This document shows, piece after piece, positions 1,246 through 17,127 of a DNA stretch of 64,000 nt (its first letter is position 1; each line of letters starts with the position of its first letter). This DNA is from an uncultured Planktomarina sp. (lineage in GTDB: Bacteria > Pseudomonadota > Alphaproteobacteria > Rhodobacterales > Rhodobacteraceae): the NCBI GenBank assembly GCA_905181815.1, contig CAJIZA010000007.1, positions 84,911 through 148,910 on the forward strand, in the 5' to 3' direction. The translations under genes were made by a program, and so were the position numbers. The notes below the pieces were generated by a model, which was not told the origin of the DNA, did not search any database, and was given only the letters and a program-made list of their open reading frames with translations.

Positions 1246-3977
<2,732 letters not shown>

Positions 3978-4191: not shown

Positions 4192-5253
4192 ATGAAATTA
4201 CGCGCGATTGCAACGATGATTTTAAGTACTACAGCATTAAGTGCGACCGCTGGAGGTTTTGAGACTAACTCTCTGTCAACATCCTTTATGTACGAGAAAG
4301 GCAATTATGCTGAACTTGGTATGTCAAGTCGATCGCCTGATGTTAAAGGTACAGTGTACGCTCCGACAGGCAGTGCGCTCGCAAAACAAGATTACGTTTC
4401 ATTGGCGATTAAGAGTGATATCTCAAGCGATTTATCTGTTGGCCTAACATCTTACAATCAGGGTGCGGTACAACTTGATTACTCCTCTGCAGGAAGTCCC
4501 TATGCTGTAGCCCTGCCTGTTGTCGATTTAGACATCAACGCATTGGCCGTTTTGGTGAAATATTCGCTCTCTGATAATGTGAGCATCCTTGGCGGTGCCA
4601 AACAGTCACAAGTTCAGAATGCGTCAGCCAATATATTTCAGAGTGCTGGATTGCCAGCGTCTTCTGTTTCAGGAGCTACTGAAACAAGCCTCTTGATTGG
4701 GGCATCATATGCAATTCCTAAAATAGCTTTGCGCGCTGAACTAATTTACGAAGGCGACGCTGATTTTTCGTTAGATACTTCAAATGCAGGCGTTGGAACC
4801 GGCAAAACAAGCGCATCAGTTCCCGATTACATGACCTTGAATTTTCAAAGTGGCATAGCTGAGGATACATTATTATTTGGATCAATTCGAAAGGCTGACT
4901 GGAGCAATCACCAAATTACAGTCTTTCCCGGTACACCAACAACTTCAAGTTTTACCGATACCACAACATATTCCCTCGGGATTGGTCGAAAAATAAACGA
5001 TGCAGTATCTCTTATAGCAAATTATTCAACAGAACCTGCGGGCTCATCGGCTTCTACAACGCCACTTACAATAACCAACGGTTACGATGCAATTGGACTC
5101 GCAGTAAGGTATTCAAGTGGTAATTCAACTGTAACTGCCGGCTACAGCTATGCTAAAGTTGGAAATATAACACTTACATCAGGCCTTGGCGTCGGAGAAT
5201 TTACCAACAATACAGTTACCGGCTTCGGTATAAAGATTGGCTATAATTTCTAA
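4192..5253 (+). CDS. FadL/OmpP1/TodX-type outer membrane transport protein
   Basis: 353 residues with a short Sec signal peptide (MKLRAIATMILSTTALSATA, cleavage near residue 20). The rest is rich in Ser/Thr/Gly with alternating beta-strand texture and ends in YNF, an aromatic outer-membrane sorting end. The opening EKGNYAELGMSSRSPDVKG resembles the start of Rhodobacterales FadL-like channels, which pass long-chain fatty acids or other hydrophobic substrates. A GGGAG site sits nine bases before the ATG. The base composition is clearly more AT-rich than that of katG or the catabolic genes beside it, which may reflect later arrival. The following cluster of acyl-CoA enzymes makes a fatty- or aromatic-acid substrate likely, but this is inference. 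Confidence 0.75.
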   Translation: MKLRAIATMILSTTALSATAGGFETNSLSTSFMYEKGNYAELGMSSRSPDVKGTVYAPTGSALAKQDYVSLAIKSDISSDLSVGLTSYNQGAVQLDYSSAGSPYAVALPVVDLDINALAVLVKYSLSDNVSILGGAKQSQVQNASANIFQSAGLPASSVSGATETSLLIGASYAIPKIALRAELIYEGDADFSLDTSNAGVGTGKTSASVPDYMTLNFQSGIAEDTLLFGSIRKADWSNHQITVFPGTPTTSSFTDTTTYSLGIGRKINDAVSLIANYSTEPAGSSASTTPLTITNGYDAIGLAVRYSSGNSTVTAGYSYAKVGNITLTSGLGVGEFTNNTVTGFGIKIGYNF

Positions 5254-5270
5254 TAACCATTACCAAAATG

Positions 5271-5300
5271 AAAATACCCTGCTTTGTCAGGGTATTTTTT
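5271..5300. terminator. Terminator between convergent genes
   Basis: AAAATACCCTG pairs with CAGGGTATTTT around a six-base loop. A T-run follows on the plus strand and an A-run leads in, so it can serve both the FadL-like gene and the converging thioesterase operon. Confidence 0.85.
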
Positions 5301-5323: not shown

Positions 5324-5752
5324 TTACATCAAGCTGTTTAAATACTTTATCGTTTCTGAGCTTAATTCTGATGGTCGCCTTGTTCTGCGATTAACATTTA
5401 CATGAACAAAATGTCCTTGAGCAGCGGCAAAAATTTCCTCTCCTGGAAATAATCCAACGGCATAAGTAACCGATGACGTGCCCAGCTTACTAACCTGAAT
5501 TCCAGCGGTAATTATATCAGGAAACGCTAATTCTTTGAAATATTGGCATCCAGTTTCCACAACTAAAAATACAGTCTTGCCAAGTTTCAAGTCCAACACG
5601 CCTTGCTCCAGCAAATGCCCGTTCACTGCAGTATCAAACAACTGATAATGCACTGCATTGTTCATATGTCCATAGATATCATTATCAATCCAACGCGTGG
5701 TCAGAGTCGAGAAAGCACGATAATCGGAACGGGTTTTTTGAGTCTGTCTCAC
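5324..5752 (-). CDS. 4HBT-superfamily acyl-CoA thioesterase
   Basis: 142-residue hot-dog-fold thioesterase of the 4-hydroxybenzoyl-CoA/YbgC type. The active-site helix region RWIDNDIYGHMNNAVHYQL carries the catalytic Asp and the conserved GHMNN; a second conserved part is GKTVFLVVETGCQYFKEL. It hydrolyses an acyl-CoA thioester, with the chain length not predictable. The GTG at 5752 is preferred over the TTG at 5755 because it overlaps the TGA of the upstream dehydrogenase by four bases and lies seven bases after GAGG. It is the last gene of a three-gene minus operon and could release free acid or recycle CoA for that pathway. Confidence 0.85.
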   Translation of the reverse strand: MRQTQKTRSDYRAFSTLTTRWIDNDIYGHMNNAVHYQLFDTAVNGHLLEQGVLDLKLGKTVFLVVETGCQYFKELAFPDIITAGIQVSKLGTSSVTYAVGLFPGEEIFAAAQGHFVHVNVNRRTRRPSELSSETIKYLNSLM

Positions 5753-6903
5753 CAAGCAGCCTCATAAATTTGCATGGCTGCAGCCTCATCCACAGGGCGC
5801 GGGTTGTTGACCAGAAGGCGAGTTTGATTCATGGCATCGCGCGCCAGTTTAGGCAAGGCTTCCCGCGCGATACCCATCTCCCGCAAGCCTTGCTCGAGCC
5901 CACAAGCCTGGCTCAAATCTGCCATACCTTGGGCAAACTTCATGGCCGCCTCCGCCACGTTCATTGCAGGCAGATCTGGGAAAACATGTGGCAAGAGCTC
6001 CGCATAAGCCTTGGGCGCAACTTGCGCATTAAAGCGCAAGACATGCGGCAGAACCAAAGCATTTGAGAGCCCATGCGGGACTTTATAATGTCCCCCAATC
6101 GGATAGGCCAATGCATGCACGGCAGCCACGGGCGAATTGGCAAAAGCTTGCCCAGCCAACATGGAGCCCAAAAGCATGCCCGTACGAGCTTCAAGATCAT
6201 CAGGCTTTTGCACGGCGCGCAACAGCATTCGGCCCATAAGCCCCAGCGCCTCAACCGCCAGCGCACGGCTGATTGGATTGTTGTTGGCATTAACACTGGC
6301 GTAGGCTTCAATCGCATGAACCATAGCGTCGATGCCAGTTGCAGCCGTAACATGCGCAGGCAATCCAAGCGTCAGTTCCGGATCAAGCAGTGCCAGGTCA
6401 GGCAAAAGCAAGGGGCTTACCACGCCCATTTTCTCCGATGCGCCTGTGGTCACAATCGAAATTGGCGTCACCTCTGAGCCTGTCCCCGCAGTGGTTGGCA
6501 CCAACACCAGCGGCAAGCGCGGCCCCTGTGCATTGCCAATCCCATAGGCTTCCGCCAATGGCTGGCCTGAAGCGGCCAAAAGCGCGGCAAGTTTGGCGAC
6601 ATCCAAGGACGACCCTCCACCAAATCCAATCACCCCGGTGACGCCGCGCGCTTGCTGAGCGGCATGCAACACGATCGATTCCGGTGGATCCGCTTGCACC
6701 TGATCAAAGAGCGTCACCGCTACGCCAGCCGCGCGCAGGCCATCTGTCGCCTGCTGCACAAGGCCAGTGGCCATCATGCCCGGGTCAGTGACCAAAAGCA
6801 CCCGATCGCCGCAAATTGGGCGCGTGATCTTGCCCAACTCTCCAGCCAAGCCCGCCTCCATACGCAGGCTCGGGGTAGTATTAAAGGTGAAGGGGTTCAT
6901 CAT
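5749..6903 (-). CDS. Iron-containing (group III) alcohol dehydrogenase
   Basis: 384 residues. The N-terminal NAD(P)-binding half has GVIGFGGGSSLDVAK and the family loop VPTTAGTGSEVTPISI. Metal ligands are visible in GIDAMVHAIEAY (Asp and His) and in AVHALAYPIGGHYKVPHGLSNA (two His). The ATG at 6903 has AAGGA eight bases ahead; the longer frame from 6930 adds non-family residues. Members oxidise or reduce alcohols, lactaldehyde, 4-hydroxybutyrate, or act as maleylacetate reductases or hydroxyacid-oxoacid transhydrogenases. The neighbouring acyl-CoA dehydrogenase and kinase make a hydroxy-acid substrate attractive, but the sequence does not settle it. Confidence 0.9.
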   Translation of the reverse strand: MMNPFTFNTTPSLRMEAGLAGELGKITRPICGDRVLLVTDPGMMATGLVQQATDGLRAAGVAVTLFDQVQADPPESIVLHAAQQARGVTGVIGFGGGSSLDVAKLAALLAASGQPLAEAYGIGNAQGPRLPLVLVPTTAGTGSEVTPISIVTTGASEKMGVVSPLLLPDLALLDPELTLGLPAHVTAATGIDAMVHAIEAYASVNANNNPISRALAVEALGLMGRMLLRAVQKPDDLEARTGMLLGSMLAGQAFANSPVAAVHALAYPIGGHYKVPHGLSNALVLPHVLRFNAQVAPKAYAELLPHVFPDLPAMNVAEAAMKFAQGMADLSQACGLEQGLREMGIAREALPKLARDAMNQTRLLVNNPRPVDEAAAMQIYEAAW

Positions 6904-6978
6904 ATGCCAAGTCCTTCTTTTCCGGCGCAATCGCGTCTCTCAAACTTGCGGATCACATAGCCACATGGCAAAGCCTTC

Positions 6979-8214
6979 TTAGATCTTTTCCTGCGTATGC
7001 TTACGCAGCTCCGCCCGGGCCACTTGCCGACGATGCACCGCATCAGGTCCATCCGCCAGACGCAGGGTGCGCAGATGCATCCAGTAGGCCGCCAGGGGGG
7101 TATCTTGACTGATACCACCCGCCCCATGCAGCTGAATGGCTTCATCCACCACCTTCAAAGCCATGATCGGCGCTACAACTTTGATCTTAGAGATCCAAGG
7201 CGCCGCGGCACGCGGATCGCCTTGGTCCATCATCCATGCCGCCTTTAAACAGAGCAATCGCGCCATCTCAATTTCCATACGCGCATCCGCGATGATGTCA
7301 AAATTCGCACCCAGTTGTGCCAAGGGCTTACCAAAAGCTGTTCGGCTCAAACTGCGTTTGCACATAAGCTCCAGCGCCGCCTCTGCTTGACCAATCGCCC
7401 GCATGCAATGATGAATGCGCCCGGGACCAAGCCGGCCTTGGGCGATCTCAAAGCCGCGCTCCTCGCCCAGAAGCATATTTTCGGCAGGTACGCGAACATT
7501 GGTAAAGCGCAAGTGATAATGCCCATGCGGCGCGTCATCATGGCCGTAAATCTCCATGGGCCGCAGTTTTTCAATCCCCGATGTGGCTGCATCGACTACG
7601 ATCATTGAATGGCGCTTATGCTTGGGCGCATCTTCCGCACCAGTTTTCACCATAACGATATAGACCGCACAGCGCGGATCACCCGCGCCGCTGGCCCACC
7701 ATTTCTCACCGTTGAGCACATAGTCATCGCCATCCCGCATGCAGCTCAGGCTCAAATTCGTCGCATCCGAGGACGCCACATCCGGCTCTGTCATCACATA
7801 GGCGGATCTGATTTCCCCTGCCAACAGCGGCGCAAGCCAGCGGGTTTTCATCTCTTCAGTGCCATACCGCTCAAAGACCTCCATATTGCCCGTATCCGGC
7901 GCCGAACAGTTGAACACCTCGGCGGCCAAGGGTGATTTGCCCAGCTCTTCGGCCATGTAAGCATATTCCACCGTCGTCAGGCCAAAACCTTTTTCGCTGC
8001 CCGTCAGCCAAAAATTCCACAGACCTTCCGCCCGGACTTTATCCTTAAGCCCGGTCATGATTTCTAGCTGACGATCGGTCAACGTCCAGCGGTCCCCCTT
8101 AGAAACCTCCGCATGATACTCCGCCTCCAAGGGCATAATATCATTTCGAATAATTTGAGAAACTCGGTCCCGCAGCTTGGCGACACGCTCTGACAGTCCA
8201 AGGTTCATTTCCAT
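6979..8214 (-). CDS. Acyl-CoA dehydrogenase, ACAD10/11-like
   Basis: 411-residue FAD enzyme. It shows the central acyl-CoA dehydrogenase signatures YVMTEPDVASSDATNL and YVLNGEKWWASGAGD and the C-terminal DEAIQLHGAGGISQDTPLA. Near the end it has RLADGPDAVH; by eye, the Asp of ADGPD occupies the place of the catalytic Glu of the usual EGT motif, as in ACAD10/ACAD11-like enzymes, which process phosphorylated 4-hydroxyacyl-CoAs. It is first in a minus-strand operon that starts opposite a kinase-containing operon, separated by a palindromic operator. That arrangement supports a 4-hydroxyacyl-CoA role; ordinary branched-chain acyl-CoA oxidation is the alternative. Confidence 0.9.
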   Translation of the reverse strand: MEMNLGLSERVAKLRDRVSQIIRNDIMPLEAEYHAEVSKGDRWTLTDRQLEIMTGLKDKVRAEGLWNFWLTGSEKGFGLTTVEYAYMAEELGKSPLAAEVFNCSAPDTGNMEVFERYGTEEMKTRWLAPLLAGEIRSAYVMTEPDVASSDATNLSLSCMRDGDDYVLNGEKWWASGAGDPRCAVYIVMVKTGAEDAPKHKRHSMIVVDAATSGIEKLRPMEIYGHDDAPHGHYHLRFTNVRVPAENMLLGEERGFEIAQGRLGPGRIHHCMRAIGQAEAALELMCKRSLSRTAFGKPLAQLGANFDIIADARMEIEMARLLCLKAAWMMDQGDPRAAAPWISKIKVVAPIMALKVVDEAIQLHGAGGISQDTPLAAYWMHLRTLRLADGPDAVHRRQVARAELRKHTQEKI

Positions 8215-8271
8215 ATCGGCGCCCTCAATGTTCCAGTGATATTTTGCCCTTTACAGGGTTCCCCTTCATGA

Positions 8272-8291
8272 AACATACTCGTCAGTATGTT
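8272..8291. promoter_or_regulatory. Perfect 8-4-8 palindrome, probable TetR-family operator
   Basis: AACATACTCGTCAGTATGTT is a perfect inverted repeat (AACATACT, four-base centre CGTC, AGTATGTT). It lies in the 95-base divergent region between the acyl-CoA dehydrogenase and the maoC gene, 19 bases before the chosen maoC start. Its core matches the style of TetR/AcrR operators (ATACT...AGTAT), and a TetR-family regulator is encoded in the plus operon. Control of both directions by that protein is inference. Confidence 0.75.
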
Positions 8292-8309
8292 GTCAATGGA
8301 AGCCAAGTG

Positions 8310-8810
8310 ATGTCAGATCTGGAACGGGCCTTAGCCGCGCAAAGCGGGCAGATCGGCGTGCACTTGGGGCACAGCCCTTGGATATTGATTGATCAAGCGC
8401 GGATTGATGCCTTTGCCGAGGTCACCGGAGATCAACAGTTCATCCATGTCAACCCCGCCCGTGCTCGGGCAGAAACCCCTTTTGAGGGCACTGTCGCGCA
8501 TGGGTTTCTGACGCTCTCCATGGCCAGTCGCATGGCACAAGACACGCTGCCCAACCTACCCGGTCAGGTGATGAATCTCAACGCAGGATTTGATCGCTTG
8601 CGCTTTATCTCCCCGCTGCCCAGCGGTTGCAGAATTCGTGGCGCATTTAAACTCAAAGAGGTCACGAAGACCCAGGCCAACCACCTGCGCATGGTGACAG
8701 AGCTGATCGTTGAAATTGAACACAGCGACACGCCCGCCCTGGTCGCCGATTGGATCAATGTCGGCGTCTTTTCAGCCCCCCATCCAAGCAATGAGGCCCG
8801 GCACATATGA
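8310..8810 (+). CDS. MaoC-like (R)-specific enoyl-CoA hydratase/dehydratase
   Basis: 166-residue single hot-dog protein with the hydratase-2 region FAEVTGDQQFIHVNPARARA (catalytic Asp and His) followed by PFEGTVAHGFLTLSM. Such enzymes hydrate trans-2-enoyl-CoA or dehydrate (R)-3-hydroxyacyl-CoA. The ATG at 8310 is preferred to the frame start at 8244: GGAAG lies seven bases ahead, the protein then begins MSDLERALAAQSG, and the operator palindrome would otherwise fall inside the coding region. It is the first gene of the plus-strand operon and overlaps the kinase gene by ATGA. Confidence 0.88.
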   Translation: MSDLERALAAQSGQIGVHLGHSPWILIDQARIDAFAEVTGDQQFIHVNPARARAETPFEGTVAHGFLTLSMASRMAQDTLPNLPGQVMNLNAGFDRLRFISPLPSGCRIRGAFKLKEVTKTQANHLRMVTELIVEIEHSDTPALVADWINVGVFSAPHPSNEARHI

Positions 8811-9847
8811 CACAAACCCTTCACAGTTATGATTCTGAACGCCTCTCCACATACTTGGAGCAACATGTGGCCGGATTTTCTGGAATGGCGGAGATCACGA
8901 AATTTTCCAATGGCCAGTCCAACCCAACATATAAGCTGACTGACACCACTGGCAGCCATTTTGTGCTGCGCGCCAAGCCACCGGGCACCTTGCTTAAATC
9001 TGCCCATGCGGTAGATCGCGAATTCCGCGTCATGACCGCTCTGGCCACGAGCGCTGTGCCCGTACCGAAAATGTTGCACCTGTCAGGCGAGGACAGTCCA
9101 ATGGGCGCGCAATTTTTGGTGATGGAACATTTGGCGGGGCGGGTGTTTTGGGACCCCGCCCTCCCCGAGCAGTCCCCAGAGTTTCGCCAAGACGCCTACC
9201 ACGCGCTAGTGCGTACCCTGGCCGCTCTGCATGATGTTGATCCACGGGCCGTCGGACTAGCTGACTTTGGTAAGCCGGGCAATTATTTTTCGCGGCAAGT
9301 CTCGCGTTGGACACGGCAATATCGTGTCTGTGAGACACAGGCACGTCCCGATATGGATTGGACCATCGATTGGCTGGACCGCAACATGGTGCAAGATGAT
9401 GGGCAAACCGCCATCGTGCACGGTGATTACCGTTTGGACAACGTCATGTTCGACACAGAGACTCCCGACATGATCGCCGTTTTGGATTGGGAATTGTCCA
9501 CGCTGGGGCATCCTTTTGCCGACCTGGCCTATCAATGCATGGGTCTGCGGCTACCACAAAATGGTATGATCAAGGGGCTCAAGGGTATTGACCGAAATGC
9601 GCATGTGCTGCCAGAAGAAGCTGAATATGTTGCGCAATACTGCGCTCTCAGAGGCATAGCCCCACCTGAAAATTGGGCTTTCTATATGGTTTTTTCCTTC
9701 TTTCGACTGGCTGCCATTTTGGAGGGCGTTTTGCATCGTGCCCAATCTGGAAATGCCTCGAACCCTAGGGGTATTGATACGATGAGCCGCACCATTGCCA
9801 CTCTGGCCCAGGCCGCAAAACACACCGCTCAGGGCCGCCTGTCATGA
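8807..9847 (+). CDS. APH-fold kinase of the ACAD10/11 N-domain / LvaA type
   Basis: 346 residues with the aminoglycoside-phosphotransferase/choline-kinase fold. FSNGQSNPTYKL and FVLRAKPPG form the ATP-binding lobe, IVHGDYRLDNVMF is the catalytic loop (D207, N212), and AVLDWELSTLGHPFADLAY the Mg-binding motif (DWE, 227-229). The sequence style, with KPPG and GHPFADLAY, is that of phosphotransferases found next to acyl-CoA dehydrogenases rather than antibiotic-resistance kinases. In mammals a kinase and a dehydrogenase domain are fused in ACAD10/11; in Pseudomonas the lva operon carries them separately for levulinate. Here the dehydrogenase candidate is divergently encoded at 6979-8214. It overlaps both neighbours by four bases. 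Confidence 0.85.
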   Translation: MTQTLHSYDSERLSTYLEQHVAGFSGMAEITKFSNGQSNPTYKLTDTTGSHFVLRAKPPGTLLKSAHAVDREFRVMTALATSAVPVPKMLHLSGEDSPMGAQFLVMEHLAGRVFWDPALPEQSPEFRQDAYHALVRTLAALHDVDPRAVGLADFGKPGNYFSRQVSRWTRQYRVCETQARPDMDWTIDWLDRNMVQDDGQTAIVHGDYRLDNVMFDTETPDMIAVLDWELSTLGHPFADLAYQCMGLRLPQNGMIKGLKGIDRNAHVLPEEAEYVAQYCALRGIAPPENWAFYMVFSFFRLAAILEGVLHRAQSGNASNPRGIDTMSRTIATLAQAAKHTAQGRLS

Positions 9848-10452
9848 TGCTCGACAGCACATCGGTAAAGGGACGCATTTTAGATACCGCCGCTCGGGCC
9901 TTTGCCACCCATGGGGTGGATCAGACCTCGATTGATGATATCGCCCGCGACCTTGGCGCAACTAAGGGCAAAATCTACCATCATTTCGGGTCAAAAAGCG
10001 AATTGGTATGCGCCATTCGCAAACATTCCGTGCAGCTCACGTTAGAGCGAGTCCGCCCTCAGTTTGATGCACCAATGCCACCCGCGCAAAAATTTCACGC
10101 CATGGCCAAAGCCCATGTCATCGCTATGATATCAGAGCTGTCCTATCACCGCGTCGTGGTTGAGGAGATGCGCGGCTCGCGTACTGGCGGGGCGACACCA
10201 GCAGAGCGAGCTTTGCGGCTCGAAATCGCTGCGCTGCAATCGGAATATGAGGGTTTTTTCCGCAGCACCTTGGCCGAGGGTATCGCCAGCGGGCATTTTC
10301 GCGACCAAGACATTTCGATCGCCGTACGGAGTTTTTTGATGATGCTGCATGCGCCGATCTATTGGTACCAACCGCGCGACGCAGAAAATATCGCCGCCAT
10401 TGCCGACCAATTGGCCAATATGGCCTTGGGTGCAGTGGCAACGCCACAATGA
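9844..10452 (+). CDS. TetR/AcrR-family transcriptional regulator
   Basis: 202 residues. The N-terminal helix-turn-helix domain is clear: ILDTAARAFATHGVDQTSID followed by DIARDLGATKGKIYHHFGSK. The C-terminal ligand domain (roughly 65-200) is family-typical and not specific. It starts inside the kinase stop codon, so it is translationally coupled to the operon it probably controls. The palindrome at 8272-8291 is the obvious binding site, with an acyl-CoA or hydroxyacyl-CoA as the likely effector. The pairing is inferred from position only. Confidence 0.92.
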   Translation: MMLDSTSVKGRILDTAARAFATHGVDQTSIDDIARDLGATKGKIYHHFGSKSELVCAIRKHSVQLTLERVRPQFDAPMPPAQKFHAMAKAHVIAMISELSYHRVVVEEMRGSRTGGATPAERALRLEIAALQSEYEGFFRSTLAEGIASGHFRDQDISIAVRSFLMMLHAPIYWYQPRDAENIAAIADQLANMALGAVATPQ

Positions 10453-10518
10453 GATGTTGATCTCCCAAACACCTGCGCTTTACGTTGGCGCGGCGCTGCA
10501 ATCGCAAAGGACGCTTCG

Positions 10519-12609
10519 ATGACCCAACCTGTGACACTCTCGATGGCCGGCTCCATCGCCGTAATTGAGATCAATAACCCCCCAGTCAACGCGCTAAATC
10601 AGGTGGTGCGGCAAGGCTTGCGCGATGCTATCGTGCAAGCGGATACAGACACGGCCTTTACGGCCATCGTCATCATTGGAGCCGGGCGCAGCTTTCCTGC
10701 CGGGGCGGATATCAAAGAATTTGACCAGCCAATGCAGGATCCGCATTTGCCGGATGTGATCGATCGCATTGAAAGTTGCAGCAAACCGGTTGTGGCCGCG
10801 TTGCATGGCACAGCTTTGGGGGGCGGTTTTGAGATTGCCCTGGGCAGCCATTACCGCATCGCCGTGCCATCTGCGCGGGTGGGCCTGCCCGAAATTCATC
10901 TCGGGCTCATCCCCGGCGCCGGCGGCACGCAGCGCTTGCCGCGATTGTGTGGCGCCGCAATGGCGCTCGAGATTATGTTCAAAGGCACCCCCATCAGCGC
11001 GCAAGATGCTTTGACTGCCGGATTAATCGACCGTTTGGCAGAAGGGGATTTGCGCCAAGCCGCTTTGAACTATGCCGCGGAGCTCCAAACCCTGCGCCGC
11101 AGCAGCGATGCCATCTCCCACCTTGCGGACAAAGCCGCCTTCGAAGCGGCGTTGCAAAATGCAGCACAAACGGCCGCCAGCCGCATGCGCGGGCAAATGG
11201 CCCCACTGAAGATTGTCGATTGCGTGCGCGCCTGCATCACCCAACCTTTCGCGAATGGACGCCTGTTCGAAAGCGATTGCTTTTTTGAATGCCTTGCCTC
11301 TGAGCAATCCACAGGCATGATCCACGCCTTTTTTGCCCAGCGCGCCAGCGCCAAAGTTCCCGAAGCCAGCCGCGCAGAGCCACGCCCCCTAACCCGGCTT
11401 GGGGTCGTGGGCGGCGGCACTATGGGTGCAGGCATCACCGTCGCAGCCCTGAACAGCGGCCTGCCGGTCACGATGATCGAGCGCGATAAAGAAAGCTTGG
11501 CGCGGGGACGGGCCAATGTAGAGCAGGTCTATGATCGCCTGATTGCCAAAGGCCGCATGAGCGCGACGCAAAAATCTGATATTATGGCCCAGTATCAAAG
11601 CTCAACGGAATTTGCCGATCTGTCGGAGGTCGACATGGTGATCGAAGCAGTTTTTGAGCGGCTCGATATCAAACGCGGCGTGTTTGAACAGCTCGACAAA
11701 GTGCTAAAACCCGATGCGGTTTTGGCCTCCAACACGAGCTATATCGACATAGATGAAATTTCCAGTGCCACCAACCGCCGCGAAAACGTGCTGGGCCTGC
11801 ATTTTTTCAGCCCGGCAAATATCATGAAATTGCTCGAAATTGTTGTGCCGCAAGACGCGGCTGACGATGTGGTGGCTACAGGCTTTGCCTTGGCCAAAAT
11901 TTTGGGCAAAATTCCCGTACGTGCTGGCAATTCGCCCGGGTTCATCGGCAACCGCATTCTCGGAAAATATGGCGATTGCGCCGCCCATATGATGGAAGAC
12001 GGCGCCACGCCTTATGAAATTGATGCCGCAATTGTGGAGTTTGGCTATCCGATGGGCATCCATGCCATGTATGATCTGGCTGGTCTGGACATTGGATGGG
12101 ACAATCGCAAAGCCGCGCAGGACAAGCGCGATCCAGCGGAACGCTATGTTGAGATCGCCGACCGTATTTGTGAGCGCGGCTGGTTTGGGCAAAAAACCGG
12201 GCGCGGCTTCTACCTTTACCCGGGCGGTGCACGTATCGGAACGCCAGACCCTGAGATTCTTGCTCTGATAGAGGCGGAACGTGCCCAAAAATCCATCGCG
12301 GCCCGCAAATTCACCACTGACGAGATTATGGCGCGCTATCTGGCCGCTATGGTCAATGAAGCCTGTGACGTTCTGCGCGAAAGGGTGGCCTTGAAACCCT
12401 CAGATATCGATGTGACCTTCGTGCATGGCTATGGCTTCCCTAGATATCGAGGTGGGCCGATGAAATATGCAGACGGTTATGGTCTGGATCGACTGCTGGA
12501 CGATATCCGCCGCTATGGGCAGGACGATCCCATATTTTGGCAGGCCTCACCGTTATTGGAAGAACTGGTGGCCTCTGGGCAAACTTTCGACGACCTGAAC
12601 AAAGGATAG
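10519..12609 (+). CDS. FadB/FadJ-like bifunctional enoyl-CoA hydratase / 3-hydroxyacyl-CoA dehydrogenase
   Basis: 696 residues. The N-terminal crotonase domain (about 1-260) has the oxyanion-hole motifs and both catalytic glutamates: E105 in LGGGFEIALG and E125 in GLPEIHLGLIPGAGG. The NAD-binding domain begins with GVVGGGTMGAG (295-305), LHFFSPANIMKLLEIV holds the catalytic His, and SPGFIGNRIL leads into two C-terminal 3HCDH domains. It performs the hydration and NAD-dependent oxidation steps of beta-oxidation on S-3-hydroxyacyl-CoA. The length and domain order match the peroxisomal-type monofunctional-chain enzymes of alphaproteobacteria. No thiolase gene is in the window. It precedes the acyl-CoA dehydrogenase pair by four bases. 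Confidence 0.94.
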   Translation: MTQPVTLSMAGSIAVIEINNPPVNALNQVVRQGLRDAIVQADTDTAFTAIVIIGAGRSFPAGADIKEFDQPMQDPHLPDVIDRIESCSKPVVAALHGTALGGGFEIALGSHYRIAVPSARVGLPEIHLGLIPGAGGTQRLPRLCGAAMALEIMFKGTPISAQDALTAGLIDRLAEGDLRQAALNYAAELQTLRRSSDAISHLADKAAFEAALQNAAQTAASRMRGQMAPLKIVDCVRACITQPFANGRLFESDCFFECLASEQSTGMIHAFFAQRASAKVPEASRAEPRPLTRLGVVGGGTMGAGITVAALNSGLPVTMIERDKESLARGRANVEQVYDRLIAKGRMSATQKSDIMAQYQSSTEFADLSEVDMVIEAVFERLDIKRGVFEQLDKVLKPDAVLASNTSYIDIDEISSATNRRENVLGLHFFSPANIMKLLEIVVPQDAADDVVATGFALAKILGKIPVRAGNSPGFIGNRILGKYGDCAAHMMEDGATPYEIDAAIVEFGYPMGIHAMYDLAGLDIGWDNRKAAQDKRDPAERYVEIADRICERGWFGQKTGRGFYLYPGGARIGTPDPEILALIEAERAQKSIAARKFTTDEIMARYLAAMVNEACDVLRERVALKPSDIDVTFVHGYGFPRYRGGPMKYADGYGLDRLLDDIRRYGQDDPIFWQASPLLEELVASGQTFDDLNKG

Positions 12610-12613
12610 AGCT

Positions 12614-13810
12614 ATGGATCTGAACTTCACCGAAGCTGACCAGGCATTTCGCCAAGAAGTTATCGAATTTTTGAGAGTGGAATTACCAGCTGATATTTCG
12701 CGAAGGGTTCACGCGGACCTGCCCGTCAGCAAAGAGGACACAGAATTTTGGCATGCGGTTTTGCATAAACGCGGCTGGCTGACTTATAATTGGCCCAAAT
12801 CTTTTGGCGGTATTGGCTGGAGCCCCGTGCAACAATTTATCTTTGAGGAAGAATGCGCCGCCGCTGGCGCCCCGCGCATCTTGCCATTTGGCCTCAAAAT
12901 GCTGGCGCCCGTTTTGATAGCTTTCGGCTCAAAAGAGCAACAAGAGCATTGGCTCCCGCGCATGTGCGATGGCACTGACTGGTGGTGCCAAGGCTATTCA
13001 GAACCAGGATCTGGATCTGACTTGGCCAGTCTCAAAACGACAGCGGTTAAACAGGGCGATCACTATGTGATCAACGGCCAAAAAACTTGGACTACATTGG
13101 GCCAATACGCCAACATGATCTTTTGCCTCGTGCGAACGGACGGCGATTGCAAACCGCAAGCCGGTATTTCTTTCATCTTGGTTGATTTGGCAACGCCAGG
13201 TATTGAGATGCGCCCAATCCGCACGCTGGACGGGGGACAGGAAGTGAATGAGGTATTCTTCACAGATGTCCGCGTCCCTGCTTCAAACTTGGTGGGTGAG
13301 GAAAATAAGGGCTGGACCTATGCGAAGTACTTACTGGCCCATGAACGCAATGGCATCGCCAATGTCGGAATTTCAGGTCAGAAACTTGCTCGGCTCAAGC
13401 GCCTCTCCTTGACCCAAAAACGAAATGGAAAACCGCTGGCCGATGATCCATTGTTTGCGGCACGGCTGGCCCGTTTGGAGATAGAGCTACACAATCTGGA
13501 AACCACAAACTTGCGGGTTCTCGACGGGTTCTCGAAAGGCGCTGGACCCGGGCCAGAAAGTTCGATGTTGAAAATCATCGGATCAGAGTTGGAACAAAAC
13601 TTCGACGATCTCACGCGCCGCGCCTTGGGACGCCACGCACAGGCTCATACACCACAGGTGTTTGAGCCCGGCTACAATGGACCACAGGTGGCGCCACAAG
13701 ATATGGCCAATCAATCTGCCGCTTATTTCAACAAGCGCAAAGTGTCCATCTATGGTGGCTCAAATGAGATACAAAAAAACATCATAACCAAAATGATATT
13801 GGGGCTTTAA
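12614..13810 (+). CDS. Acyl-CoA dehydrogenase, large partner of a probable heteromeric pair
   Basis: 398-residue acyl-CoA dehydrogenase starting MDLNFTEADQAFRQEVIEFL. It has WWCQGYSEPGSGSDLASLKT and YVINGQKTWTTLGQYANM in the FAD/substrate core, and a C-terminal SIYGGSNEIQKNIITKMILG in which the residue matching the common catalytic Glu (YEGT) is Gly. This YGGSNEIQ form is characteristic of partners in two-subunit dehydrogenases acting on side chains of steroids, bile acids or other bulky acids. The second subunit follows four bases later. The operon position after the FadB-like gene places it in the same beta-oxidation pathway. Confidence 0.9.
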   Translation: MDLNFTEADQAFRQEVIEFLRVELPADISRRVHADLPVSKEDTEFWHAVLHKRGWLTYNWPKSFGGIGWSPVQQFIFEEECAAAGAPRILPFGLKMLAPVLIAFGSKEQQEHWLPRMCDGTDWWCQGYSEPGSGSDLASLKTTAVKQGDHYVINGQKTWTTLGQYANMIFCLVRTDGDCKPQAGISFILVDLATPGIEMRPIRTLDGGQEVNEVFFTDVRVPASNLVGEENKGWTYAKYLLAHERNGIANVGISGQKLARLKRLSLTQKRNGKPLADDPLFAARLARLEIELHNLETTNLRVLDGFSKGAGPGPESSMLKIIGSELEQNFDDLTRRALGRHAQAHTPQVFEPGYNGPQVAPQDMANQSAAYFNKRKVSIYGGSNEIQKNIITKMILGL

Positions 13811-13813
13811 GTT

Positions 13814-14908
13814 ATGGATTTTCAACCCACTGAGGAACGCCGCATGCTGGCGGATATGATTGGAAAATTCATTCAGAATGACTATCCACTGAAAGCGCGA
13901 ATAACGGCGGGCTCCAGCGCTTTAGGCTATTGCACTGCGGCCTATAGCACGATGGCACAACTGGGTTTGATCGGTGCATTGTTTGAGGAAGAGGTTGGCG
14001 GCTTTGGCGGCTCGGGGTTTGATATCGCCACCGTCTTCACAGAGCTGGGCAAAGGTTTGGTACTTGAACCGCTTAATGATACAGCACTGACCACCGGCTA
14101 TATTTTGGCGCAGACTGACCAGTTGGAACTTGTCGAACAGATCGTCCTTGGTGAAAAACGCGTGGCACTTGGCCTCATCGAAAATGGCGCAGATTATGAT
14201 TGGAGCGCGCCCGAGACGCTTGCGCGCCAAACAGGCGCGGCCTGGCAGTTGAACGGTGTAAAAACCTGTGTGAAATTCGCCCATGGGGCTGATGCGCTTA
14301 TTGTCAGTGCGCAAACACAATCGACGCCAGGGATCAGCTTATTTTTGATTGAGGCCGCGGCAGCAGGGCTCGCGGAGCATCCGTTCCAAACAGTCGATGG
14401 CGGCAACGCCTGCGAGATTACGCTGCACAATACACCTGCTCAGCTGTTGGCTGTGGAAGGAGCAGCCTATCCATTGATCGATGCCGCAGCCGCCCGCGCT
14501 ACTTTGGCCCTCTGCGCGGAGGCCTTGGGGTTGATGGAGCGAATTAAAGATATGACCATCGACTACATGCGCACGCGCAAACAATTCGGCAGCGAGCTGG
14601 GTAAATTTCAAGCTCTGCAACACCGCGTGGCGCAGATGCTGCTCGAAATCGAGCAGGCAAAATCGGCAGTCATCAATGCTGCGAATGATTTGCAGGCCCC
14701 CACCGATGAACGAAACCGCGCCATATCCGCGGCAAAATATTCCATTGGCCGGATTGGCTGTGCCGTTGCTGAAGAGGCGATCCAGCTGCACGGCGGCATT
14801 GGTATGACTTGGGAGTATGATTTGGGGCATTTCGCCAAGCGGCTTGTTATGATTGACCACGAATGGGGGGATCAAGACTTCCACATGATGCGCTTCGCTC
14901 AAAGCTGA
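13814..14908 (+). CDS. Acyl-CoA dehydrogenase, small partner of a probable heteromeric pair
   Basis: 364 residues, opening MDFQPTEERRMLADMIGKFI, a style typical of the shorter subunit in paired acyl-CoA dehydrogenases. The central beta domain is divergent. The C-terminal domain keeps DYMRTRKQFGSELGKFQALQ and EEAIQLHGGIGMTWEYDLGH. It lacks a canonical EGT catalytic motif at its end. The three-base gap to its partner and the end of the operon directly behind it suggest co-folding as an alpha2-beta2 complex; this is inference from family precedent. Confidence 0.88.
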   Translation: MDFQPTEERRMLADMIGKFIQNDYPLKARITAGSSALGYCTAAYSTMAQLGLIGALFEEEVGGFGGSGFDIATVFTELGKGLVLEPLNDTALTTGYILAQTDQLELVEQIVLGEKRVALGLIENGADYDWSAPETLARQTGAAWQLNGVKTCVKFAHGADALIVSAQTQSTPGISLFLIEAAAAGLAEHPFQTVDGGNACEITLHNTPAQLLAVEGAAYPLIDAAAARATLALCAEALGLMERIKDMTIDYMRTRKQFGSELGKFQALQHRVAQMLLEIEQAKSAVINAANDLQAPTDERNRAISAAKYSIGRIGCAVAEEAIQLHGGIGMTWEYDLGHFAKRLVMIDHEWGDQDFHMMRFAQS

Positions 14909-15856: not shown

Positions 15857-15966
15857 GTGAGCAACACGCCTACGGCTAAAACAAATCGCAAGCTCCCACC
15901 CATCTGTTTCTTGTCATGTTGCGCAGGACGGCCTACCTACGGGATAAGTACCAAAGGAGGCGCAGC

Positions 15967-17127
15967 GTGTACCAGCCCGGTGAAACCTATAACGATATTC
16001 GCGAGGCCGTTGGCAAACTCTGCGCAGAATTTCCCGGAAGCTACTGGCGTGCACTGGATAGAGAGATGGCTTATCCGGCTGCTTTTGTGCAGGCTCTGAC
16101 TGAGGCTGGATGGCTGGGCGCTTTGATTCCTGAAAATTTTGGTGGATCAGGCCTGCCGCTCTCAGCTGCGGCCGTCATTTTGGAAGAAATCCACAGATCA
16201 GGGGGCAATGCTGGGGCTTGTCATGCACAGATGTATACCATGGGAACCCTATTGCGGCATGGCTCAGAGGCGCAAAAACACCAGTACCTGCCTAAAATCG
16301 CAGATGGGACCCTGCGGTTGCAGGCCTTTGGTGTAACCGAGCCCAGCTCAGGTACCGATACAGGCGCGTTGCGCACCACCGCCAAACGCGATGGGTCAAC
16401 TTATGTTATCAATGGGCAGAAAATTTGGACCAGCCGAGCAGAGCATTCCGACCTCATGCTGCTTTTGGCACGCACGACACCGCTGGAAGAGGGGATGAAG
16501 AAGACCCAAGGTCTCTCTGTTTTGCTGGTCGATATGCGCGAAGCACTGGGCAACGGTCTCACCCTACGGCCTATCCGCACCATGATGAACCATGCGACCA
16601 CAGAGGTCTTTTTTGACAATCTACGCGTGCCGGCAGAAAACTTGATCGGCGAGGAGGGCAAAGGATTTCGCTATATCCTCTCAGGCATGAATGCCGAACG
16701 TATTTTAATTGCCTCTGAATGTATTGGCGATGCGAAATGGTTTATCGAACACTCGGTGGCCTATGCCAAAGACCGCCAAGTCTTTGATCGCCCGATCGGG
16801 CAAAACCAAGGCATACAATTTCCCATTGCAAAGGCCTATACCAATATGCGCGCCGCTGAGTTGATGGTGAAAGAGGCGCTGGCCCTCTACGAAAACGATG
16901 GCAATCCCGGCGCTGAGGCCAATATGGCCAAAATGCTGGCAGCGGATGCCTCAAATGAAGCCGCCAATGTTGCGGTGCAAACCCATGGTGGGTTTGGCTT
17001 TGCTGAAGAATATGACATTGAGCGCAAGTTTAGAGAAACGCGGCTCTATCAAGTAGCGCCGATCTCAACGAATTTGATCCTGTCCTATCTCGCCGAACAT
17101 GTTTTGGATCTACCGCGCTCATATTGA
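15967..17127 (+). CDS. Acyl-CoA dehydrogenase
   Basis: 386 residues from a GTG at 15967, chosen because AAAGGAGG (15953-15960) sits six bases ahead; the longer ATG frame at 15916 places this ribosome site inside the gene. Core motifs are FGVTEPSSGTDTGALRTTA, YVINGQKIWTSRAEHSDLM and VFFDNLRVPAENLIGEEGKG. The C-terminus has AVQTHGGFGFAEEYDIERKF and RLYQVAPISTNLI, where Gln-Val stands in place of the usual EGT; this belongs to a subgroup of acyl-CoA dehydrogenases with an unclear catalytic base. It stands alone behind the broken IclR gene, outside the TetR operon. Confidence 0.9.
   Translation: MYQPGETYNDIREAVGKLCAEFPGSYWRALDREMAYPAAFVQALTEAGWLGALIPENFGGSGLPLSAAAVILEEIHRSGGNAGACHAQMYTMGTLLRHGSEAQKHQYLPKIADGTLRLQAFGVTEPSSGTDTGALRTTAKRDGSTYVINGQKIWTSRAEHSDLMLLLARTTPLEEGMKKTQGLSVLLVDMREALGNGLTLRPIRTMMNHATTEVFFDNLRVPAENLIGEEGKGFRYILSGMNAERILIASECIGDAKWFIEHSVAYAKDRQVFDRPIGQNQGIQFPIAKAYTNMRAAELMVKEALALYENDGNPGAEANMAKMLAADASNEAANVAVQTHGGFGFAEEYDIERKFRETRLYQVAPISTNLILSYLAEHVLDLPRSY

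Follow-up and report, generated by a model that had tools for sequence, protein, structure and literature searches.

Gene content of the divergent operons

In this study, we analyzed positions 5324–14908 of a 64,000-nucleotide stretch of DNA (hereafter the window; contig CAJIZA010000007.1 of assembly GCA_905181815.1) from an uncultured Planktomarina sp., an RCA roseobacter with a 2.54 Mb genome. The locus holds two divergent gene sets. The leftward set encodes an acyl-CoA dehydrogenase (ACAD), an iron-containing alcohol dehydrogenase (Fe-ADH), and a thioesterase, and the rightward set encodes a MaoC-like hydratase, an APH-fold kinase, a TetR regulator, a hydratase-dehydrogenase fusion, and two further ACADs (Table 1). 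Judged from their residues and relatives, the kinase and the leftward ACAD form an ACAD10/11 pair.

All named genes are full-length open reading frames (ORFs). The ORF list and a domain scan of ten proteins confirmed the coordinates and families that an earlier note on this DNA had assigned to the thioesterase, Fe-ADH, leftward ACAD, MaoC, kinase, fusion, and two paired ACADs. The note had also placed the kinase and the ACAD back to back; they are divergent but not adjacent, as the MaoC gene sits between them. The TetR gene, which lies within the kinase operon, was absent from its list. Four-base overlaps join MaoC to the kinase gene and the kinase gene to TetR. For the MaoC gene, ATG 8310 is a likelier start than TTG 8244, which was dropped because the intervening DNA is conserved, looks non-coding, and carries a 1-base insertion in one relative. 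Most Fe-ADH homologs align only from approximately residue 9–12, so the true Fe-ADH start is probably near 6903. The PimC-like and PimD-like ACADs both score under the curated pimeloyl-CoA dehydrogenase cut-offs. The promoter scan found 13 sites versus 9.2 expected, and the terminator scan found 15 sites versus 12.9 expected in the region; hence the TTTACA-18-CATACT site and the hairpin are each weak by themselves.

Table 1 Features of the divergent locus and its flank, in window coordinates
Feature	Position	Strand	Basis and remarks
FadL/OMPP1-like outer-membrane protein	4192–5253	+	Candidate uptake porin; convergent neighbor, outside leftward operon
Terminator-like hairpin with T tail, 11-pair stem	5271–5298	-	After thioesterase gene; consensus scan
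4HBT thioesterase	5324–5755	-	PF13279/PF03061
Fe-ADH	5749–6930	-	PF00465/PF25137
ACAD10/11 (LvaC)-type ACAD, putative 4-phosphoacyl-CoA dephospho-dehydroxylase	6979–8214	-	Matches 8v3u/8v3v (mouse ACAD11); active-site residues
Promoter-like TTTACA-18-CATACT, MaoC-kinase operon	8250–8279	+	Consensus scan; both hexamers conserved in Planktomarina alignment
Promoter-like TTGACA-17-TTTCAT, ACAD-Fe-ADH-thioesterase operon	8268–8296	-	By reading, missed by scan; second hexamer poor; largely conserved
Predicted operator palindrome AACATACT-CGTC-AGTATGTT	8272–8291		Overlaps both promoter-like sites
MaoC-like enoyl-CoA hydratase	8310–8810 (corrected start)	+	PF01575
APH-fold kinase, ACAD10/11 kinase-domain/LvaA type, putative 4-hydroxyacyl-CoA kinase	8807–9847	+	PF01636
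DarR-like TetR regulator	9844–10452	+	PF17932/PF00440
Enoyl-CoA hydratase/3-hydroxyacyl-CoA dehydrogenase (ECH/3HCDH) fusion, FadJ-like (PimF)	10519–12609	+	Domain and NCBIfam scans; label PimF by position
PimC-like ACAD, large-subunit type	12614–13810	+	TIGR03204, 458.8 bits (cut-off 623.85)
PimD-like ACAD, small-subunit type	13814–14908	+	TIGR03203, 255.6 bits (cut-off 652.7)

The kinase–dehydrogenase pair and its distribution

Among solved structures, the leftward ACAD is closest to 4hr3 (E = 8e-125), mouse ACAD11 (5e-118), and human ACAD11 (2e-116), with the next match at 9e-41. The published ACAD11 model describes R626, H634, and R637 as holding the phosphate, R631 as orienting the substrate, and D753 as the base, and reports nonconservative substitution of R626, H634, and R637 as most disruptive (PMC12440821). 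We mapped these positions by mouse ACAD11 numbering (chain index equals residue number minus 1) in an alignment of 113 fetched ACAD sequences and the four of the window. The window ACAD keeps R626, R631, H634, C635, M636, R637, and D753 (R-R-H-C-M-R-D), with Arg and His residues borne on its RLGPGRIHHCMR helix. The ADGPD motif, which the earlier note had picked out, holds the catalytic base, its first D being the D753 equivalent; HCMR, R626, and D753, by which ACAD11-type membership is judged, are all present. The full set occurs in 104 of the 107 fetched ACAD11-type sequences, at identities down to 32%, and in the other three the aligned piece stops before D753 (contig end in L036, frame break in L035 and L038). 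As negative controls, the three other ACADs of the window (PimC-like, PimD-like, and 15916–17127) and six of six other ACADs from the loci lack the set. The frame breaks concern the metagenome-assembled genomes (MAGs) G018 (L035) and G017 (L038), in which the ACAD gene is broken between two frames by assembly error or decay.

The kinase is closest to 3dxp (E = 1e-98) and mouse ACAD11 (3e-72), and it keeps D220, N225, and R176 and carries the catalytic HGDxxxDN motif. The published R86, beside the alpha-C Glu, was not matchable by number (index 85 is Phe), and both proteins have an Arg beside that Glu. In a 56-row kinase tree, the window kinase groups with kinases of Planktomarina, Roseobacter, Yoonia, and one Ruegeria, and mouse ACAD11, 3dxp, and 9o56 fall in a neighboring supported group of 18 rows, with 3ats remote; the mouse, 9o56, and 3ats branches are long, the root is a midpoint root, and 3ats is the sole clearly distant APH protein, so the tree gives broad placement only. 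Grouping with unrelated phosphotransferases, a possibility raised by the earlier note, was thus not found, on modest tree evidence. It is highly improbable that this is an ordinary β-oxidation cluster with a plain dehydrogenase as its ACAD and an APH protein serving some unrelated purpose such as small-molecule resistance. APH-fold proteins are diverse, and NCBIfam aminoglycoside models do match the kinase, but only sub-threshold (42.7 bits, cut-off 205), on which score aminoglycoside resistance was rejected; the residue set, the co-occurrence of the two genes, and an operator that they share even when unlinked all speak against such a cluster.

Co-occurrence was counted in 61 genomes chosen by kinship, with the kinase taken above 200 bits and the ACAD at E ≤ 1e-80. 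Both genes were present in 31 genomes and neither in 27, while two had the kinase only (G021 and G023) and one the ACAD only (G043, with a mere 116-bit kinase match). The Fisher p-values, 7e-14 for genomes and 1e-8 by genus (17 both, 2 kinase only, 1 ACAD only, 22 neither), ignore the kinship of the genomes and thus overstate independence. Counting the kinase at E ≤ 0.001 instead gives 32, 3, 0, and 26. Within Planktomarina, 15 of the 20 genomes have both genes and five have neither, some of these five being incomplete MAGs. In the isolate IMCC1909, the orthologs of the window kinase and ACAD are 90 and 98% identical to them, respectively. A search with the ACAD gave 80 fetched loci (the best 80 of 401), and the kinase lies inside the fetched stretch in 31 of these 80. 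It was present in 15 of 15 of these genomes tested (best E per genome ≤ 4e-87), including 11 of 11 picked for having no kinase near the ACAD; the tested Roseovarius, Tateyamaria, Ruegeria, and Phaeobacter genomes therefore keep the pair, mostly unlinked. In L080, L088, L109, and similar loci (Roseovarius, Tateyamaria, Ruegeria), the ACAD11-type gene stands among unrelated-looking neighbors, with the kinase elsewhere.

Within the limits of their contigs, 13 of the 15 kinase-positive Planktomarina genomes share the order thioesterase-Fe-ADH-ACAD // MaoC-kinase-TetR-PimF-PimC-PimD; L040 and L041 have approximately 1 kb of additional DNA separating Fe-ADH from ACAD. In G013 and G019, FadL, ACAD, and kinase stand alone in the fetched stretches; the kinase match in the G013 MAG (L015; G013:C70:1673-2692) contains one in-frame TGA. 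Of the 13 Planktomarina loci long enough to show it, 10 have the FadL-like gene next to the cluster, including the reduced L042 and L043 but not L035, L038, or L066. Its window product has no Pfam match of its own and is 28% identical to the FadL of L223, a protein that itself hits PF03349 (6.7e-17). In other genera, the arrangement kinase // ACAD-Fe-ADH-thioesterase was seen in MAGs of Loktanella, Yoonia, and Sulfitobacter (L127, L128, and L132), and Fe-ADH was found in nine of the best 80 ACAD loci, six of them from Planktomarina. The earlier note had suggested that a marine version with an Fe-ADH and a paired dehydrogenase would be a new arrangement: the composition as a whole is new as far as found, but the Fe-ADH-thioesterase module beside the kinase–ACAD pair is not peculiar to Planktomarina.

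The predicted operator and its DarR-like regulator

Alignment of the ACAD-MaoC gap across 13 Planktomarina loci revealed a conserved palindrome with a variable center, AACATACT-N4-AGTATGTT, in all 13: 11 copies are exact, one has one mismatch (L037), and one has a 5-base center (L038). A perfect 8-4-8 palindrome arose in 25 of 20,000 shuffles of the 95-base gap. The copy at 8272–8291 is the sole match in the window at up to three mismatches (0.12 expected) and the sole match with fewer than three mismatches in the whole genome. Three-mismatch matches were discarded as chance level (four in the own genome, G000, versus seven for the reversed control, per strand); because the reversed control exceeded the matches, the counts below use sites with at most one mismatch. 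One such chance-level palindrome lies at G000:C7:647-666 (L227).

Across 248 genomes of the family, 15 sites were found in 13 genomes, versus three sites for the reversed pattern. Ten of the 15 lie 80–530 bases from a TetR homolog (33–45% identical to the window TetR, with Lys-Gly kept), and two are Planktomarina sites with TetR inside the operon, giving 12 TetR-linked sites. A TetR homolog (1e-6) was found in none of the 74 control loci of 3.3–4.3 kb fetched by other searches, from which L154 was excluded for carrying two of the sites. Some of the sites lie among genes of the same pathway. The two sites of G279 adjoin PimC-PimD and MaoC // Fe-ADH-thioesterase-FadL, respectively; the G211 site lies between ACAD-TetR and SDR-MaoC-kinase-SDR-PimF-PimC-PimD, where SDR denotes a short-chain dehydrogenase/reductase; and the second site of G130 has beside it an AMP-ligase-like gene and then Fe-ADH (tblastn, 29 and 50%). 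The TetR-linked sites in G129, G142, G152, G242, and G024 adjoin genes outside the pathway, for example quinone-oxidoreductase-like ones, which makes the operator that of a regulator family extending beyond the pathway. In three of these, from three genera (L230, L233, and L237 of G129, G152, and G142), a DarR-like TetR and the operator stand beside a quinone-oxidoreductase-like gene; these may form a separate arm of this regulator family that has a different target.

Seven genomes were picked for TetR, MaoC, or SDR near ACAD or Fe-ADH. The Rhizobiaceae MAGs G307 and G308 each have exactly two sites, one before SDR-kinase and one before TetR-ACAD, on different contigs; at two mismatches, the reversed control also gives one site in each. 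G305 has sites between ACAD-TetR and SDR-MaoC-kinase-PimC-PimD and before a thiolase gene, plus a 2-mismatch site without a pathway gene. In G306 and G279 the sites are within the cluster, and in G304 and G309 no site was found at two mismatches. We also examined the 300 bases upstream of ACAD in 22 loci outside the main cluster type: in 21, the best matches had 5–7 mismatches, and these include the reduced Planktomarina L042 and L043 as well as Roseobacter, Roseovarius, Tateyamaria, Ruegeria, Yoonia, and Sulfitobacter. L141 (Profundibacterium), whose TetR is 57% identical, has a 3-mismatch match upstream of ACAD. In L137, L144, and L145, the site is farther off, beyond the TetR gene.

The best solved relative of the window TetR is DarR (E = 4e-36). 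DarR operators are described as all containing ATACT(N)4AGTAT, contacted via Lys44 and Gly45 (PMC10636190), and the core of the predicted operator is identical to this motif. This identity is an independent check because our motif was derived before the DarR match was found. The window TetR keeps the Thr-Lys-Gly with the DNA-contacting Lys-Gly, the first Tyr, and the Ser-Lys of DarR. It resembles DarR of mycobacteria and rhodococci (PMC10636190) in the operator core and the Lys44-Gly45 equivalents, but differs in its target genes and in having lost the cyclic-nucleotide signature W(X)6Q(X)7L, of which Trp is kept while a 3-residue gap removes Gln. The DarR-like TetR probably acts on both operons through the shared palindrome, and the genes behind these operators would be jointly regulated.

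Proposed pathway and relation to known systems

An SDR takes the place of the Fe-ADH in sister clusters. In G211 (L258), the kinase operon begins with an RhlG-like SDR gene, and Fe-ADH and thioesterase are both missing from the 20 kb; apart from an additional SDR and an enoyl-CoA hydratase, the other genes are those found in the window. The likeness to RhlG rests on a 245-bit match of the L245 relative of this SDR to 2b4q. SDR relatives (≥55% identical) are present in L049, L051, L135, L144, L145, L258, and L259, none of which shows an Fe-ADH, and no such SDR was found in the Fe-ADH loci L127, L128, L132, and L223. At 1e-40, the SDR is absent from the whole genomes of six of six Planktomarina tested (including G000), G279, and G301. 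Strict genome-wide exclusivity was rejected: it holds for the loci examined but fails in G024, where an SDR-kinase locus (L051) coexists with an Fe-ADH at another place. The sister-cluster pattern suggests that one 4-oxo/4-hydroxy oxidoreductase has been exchanged for another. The best PDB match of the Fe-ADH is an NAD-dependent methanol dehydrogenase (242 bits). Its assignment as 4-hydroxybutyrate dehydrogenase (NF058672, 238.5 bits versus a cut-off of 500) was rejected, as were lactaldehyde reductase and ErcA, both under cut-off, and no family model gave the protein a function. Among 28 Fe-ADH loci of the family from other genera, a thioesterase adjoins the Fe-ADH in 17, and the ACAD lies within the 1.5 kb flanks in none.

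We consider it likely that the cluster is a catabolic divergon, set within a wider regulon, for acids with a hydroxyl at C4, which would be phosphorylated, dephospho-dehydroxylated, and passed to β-oxidation. A ligase encoded elsewhere would convert the acid, which is probably a hydroxy fatty acid of medium or long chain, to its CoA thioester, and the PimC/PimD-like dehydrogenases and FadJ-like fusion would shorten longer chains until the hydroxyl is at C4. The kinase would then phosphorylate the 4-hydroxyl of the 4-hydroxyacyl-CoA, and the ACAD10/11-type flavoenzyme would expel phosphate to give a 2-enoyl-CoA, for which the hydratase/dehydrogenase, together with a thiolase encoded elsewhere, would complete β-oxidation. 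The kinase, ACAD, and hydratase steps follow the published enzymology of ACAD10/11, LvaA/LvaC, and Burkholderia orthologs (PMC11342911). The genome carries elsewhere five thiolase-C matches and 15 AMP-binding matches (14 above cut-off, some being pieces of one gene), none linked to the cluster, and the route can therefore probably be completed. The most likely role of the Fe-ADH is the interconversion of 4-oxo and 4-hydroxy forms, as for LvaD and, by position, perhaps the sister-cluster SDR; the thioesterase may free stalled CoA esters. By binding one palindrome, the DarR-like TetR would keep both operons repressed, and an acyl ligand would release it. The earlier note had proposed a split ACAD10/11 pair of LvaA/LvaC type in a divergent catabolic cluster, and this is supported by the residues with their controls, the tree, the co-occurrence, and the shared operator.

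Several points weigh against the proposed pathway. Ligase and thiolase are both missing from the cluster, and no AMP-binding or SDR domain was found among the ten proteins scanned. The co-occurrence has its exceptions and its p-values are inflated by kinship. Three of the 15 operator sites have no TetR alongside (G020, G147, and the second site of G130), at least five TetR-linked sites adjoin genes outside the pathway, and the operator was not found before ACAD in many loci without a neighboring TetR. The role of the Fe-ADH in the 4-oxo/4-hydroxy step is the weakest part of the model: the protein scores under every listed NCBIfam equivalog cut-off, and Fe-ADH-thioesterase pairs often lie away from the kinase and ACAD, so that their role may be generic. 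The basis for chain length is confined to the FadL-like neighbor, missing in three of 13 loci, and the PimC/PimD resemblance, which together suggest long-chain substrates.

The same chemistry may act on short substrates such as levulinate, 4-hydroxyvalerate, 4-hydroxybutyrate, and small γ-lactones, with the Fe-ADH as the 4-oxo/4-hydroxy enzyme and PimFCD handling C4–C5 products. We regard this as possible but unlikely. The closest characterized bacterial system is lva, for levulinate, in which LvaD is called a 4-oxopentanoyl-CoA 4-dehydrogenase (PMC9628823); the Fe-ADH has its 238.5-bit match to the 4-hydroxybutyrate model, and some of its homologs adjoin, by eye, ORFs resembling aldehyde dehydrogenases. 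However, the cluster has no ligase, the Fe-ADH is under all listed equivalog cut-offs, and the FadL-like neighbor and the PimC/PimD-like pair point to longer chains. It is improbable that the kinase–ACAD pair acts on another hydroxyacyl-CoA (with a ring or branched side chain, a dicarboxylate, or a hydroxyl at another carbon), the cluster then serving alicyclic, steroid-like, or dicarboxylic acids. While the PimC/PimD resemblance would fit, and the pair on a Sphingobium plasmid is accompanied by genes with P450, epoxide hydrolase, and hydroxysteroid dehydrogenase annotations, the ACAD retains every phosphate-binding residue of the 4-phosphoacyl enzymes, and no ring-cleavage or steroid genes were found among the ten proteins scanned.

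Split kinase–ACAD pairs are already known and are widespread in bacteria. Compared with the fused mammalian ACAD10 and ACAD11, both halves are homologous and the phosphate-binding and catalytic residues described for the mammalian enzymes are kept (PMC12440821, PMC11342911), but here they are two proteins in divergent operons, with a bacterial regulator and β-oxidation partners in the locus. ACAD10 also carries a HAD domain, which the Planktomarina cluster lacks. Burkholderia orthologs of both proteins are reported to replace ACAD10 domains (PMC11342911). The lva system of Pseudomonas putida (LvaA, LvaC, LvaD, and LvaE), compared via published descriptions, likewise has a split kinase and ACAD with an oxidoreductase alongside; in Planktomarina, an Fe-ADH stands in the place of LvaD, control is by TetR, and PimFCD-like β-oxidation genes are present. 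Neither an LvaE-like ligase nor an LvaD-like SDR was found among the ten proteins scanned (LvaB was not searched for), and a plasmid search for LvaA/LvaC returned other relatives, none of the matches listed being named lva. The pim operon of Rhodopseudomonas palustris also combines a large/small ACAD pair with a hydratase-dehydrogenase fusion; the Planktomarina genes differ in scoring under the curated cut-offs, in having no ligase or thiolase in the cluster, and in being joined to a 4-hydroxy module. The sister clusters G211 (L258), G305 (L144), and Notoacmeibacter (L145) share ACAD-TetR, the operator, and MaoC-kinase, with PimF/C/D in L258 and PimC/D in L144, but carry the RhlG-like SDR at the position that Fe-ADH-thioesterase occupies in Planktomarina. 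As far as found, the novelty of the locus lies in its composition, its predicted DarR-type operator, and the exchange of SDR and Fe-ADH. A literature search of limited reach, which does not show absence from print, found no published description of such clusters beyond the ACAD10/11 and levulinate work. The RCA genome paper contained none of the lipid terms tried, and a random-barcode transposon sequencing (RB-TnSeq) paper on dicarboxylates contained no phosphotransferase or 4-hydroxy term.

Papers from 2024 and 2025 identified the mammalian enzymes responsible for removing 4-hydroxyls from fatty acids. The present locus suggests how bacteria may wire this dehydroxylation into β-oxidation: one predicted operator joins the kinase, the dehydrogenase, a hydratase, paired ACADs, and an interchangeable oxidoreductase, and in some genomes it links such genes even where they are scattered. 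As a tentative and rather doubtful extension, the DarR-type TetR and AACATACT-N4-AGTATGTT might define an alphaproteobacterial hydroxy-fatty-acid dehydroxylation regulon, in which TetR would sense 4-hydroxy- or 4-phosphoacyl-CoA rather than cyclic nucleotides; bloom-associated Planktomarina might have swapped the SDR for Fe-ADH-thioesterase and feed on algal oxylipins and on acids from lipid peroxidation (4-hydroxy and 4-oxo acids) imported through the neighboring FadL. Planktomarina is described as a major roseobacter lineage of temperate to polar oceans (PMC10675870), and the 20-bp operator, the TetR, and the active-site residues offer testable handles on which hydroxylated acids such a lineage can use.

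Some neighboring genes and residues deserve mention. A KatG catalase-peroxidase gene (1719–3977) lies beside the FadL gene and is present in 11 of the 13 Planktomarina loci that reach it (partial in L039), though not in L042 or L043; it may fit lipid-peroxidation chemistry or be there by chance. A further ACAD of non-ACAD11 type (15916–17127) lies downstream, is kept in several Planktomarina loci and missing in others, and is probably outside the divergon. In ACADs, the usual catalytic residue is a Glu (IYEG in 1ukw), and at this position the PimC-like ACAD reads IYGG and the PimD-like ACAD reads HEWG, by eye. From these residues, the two proteins may form a heteromer with a single ordinary active site.

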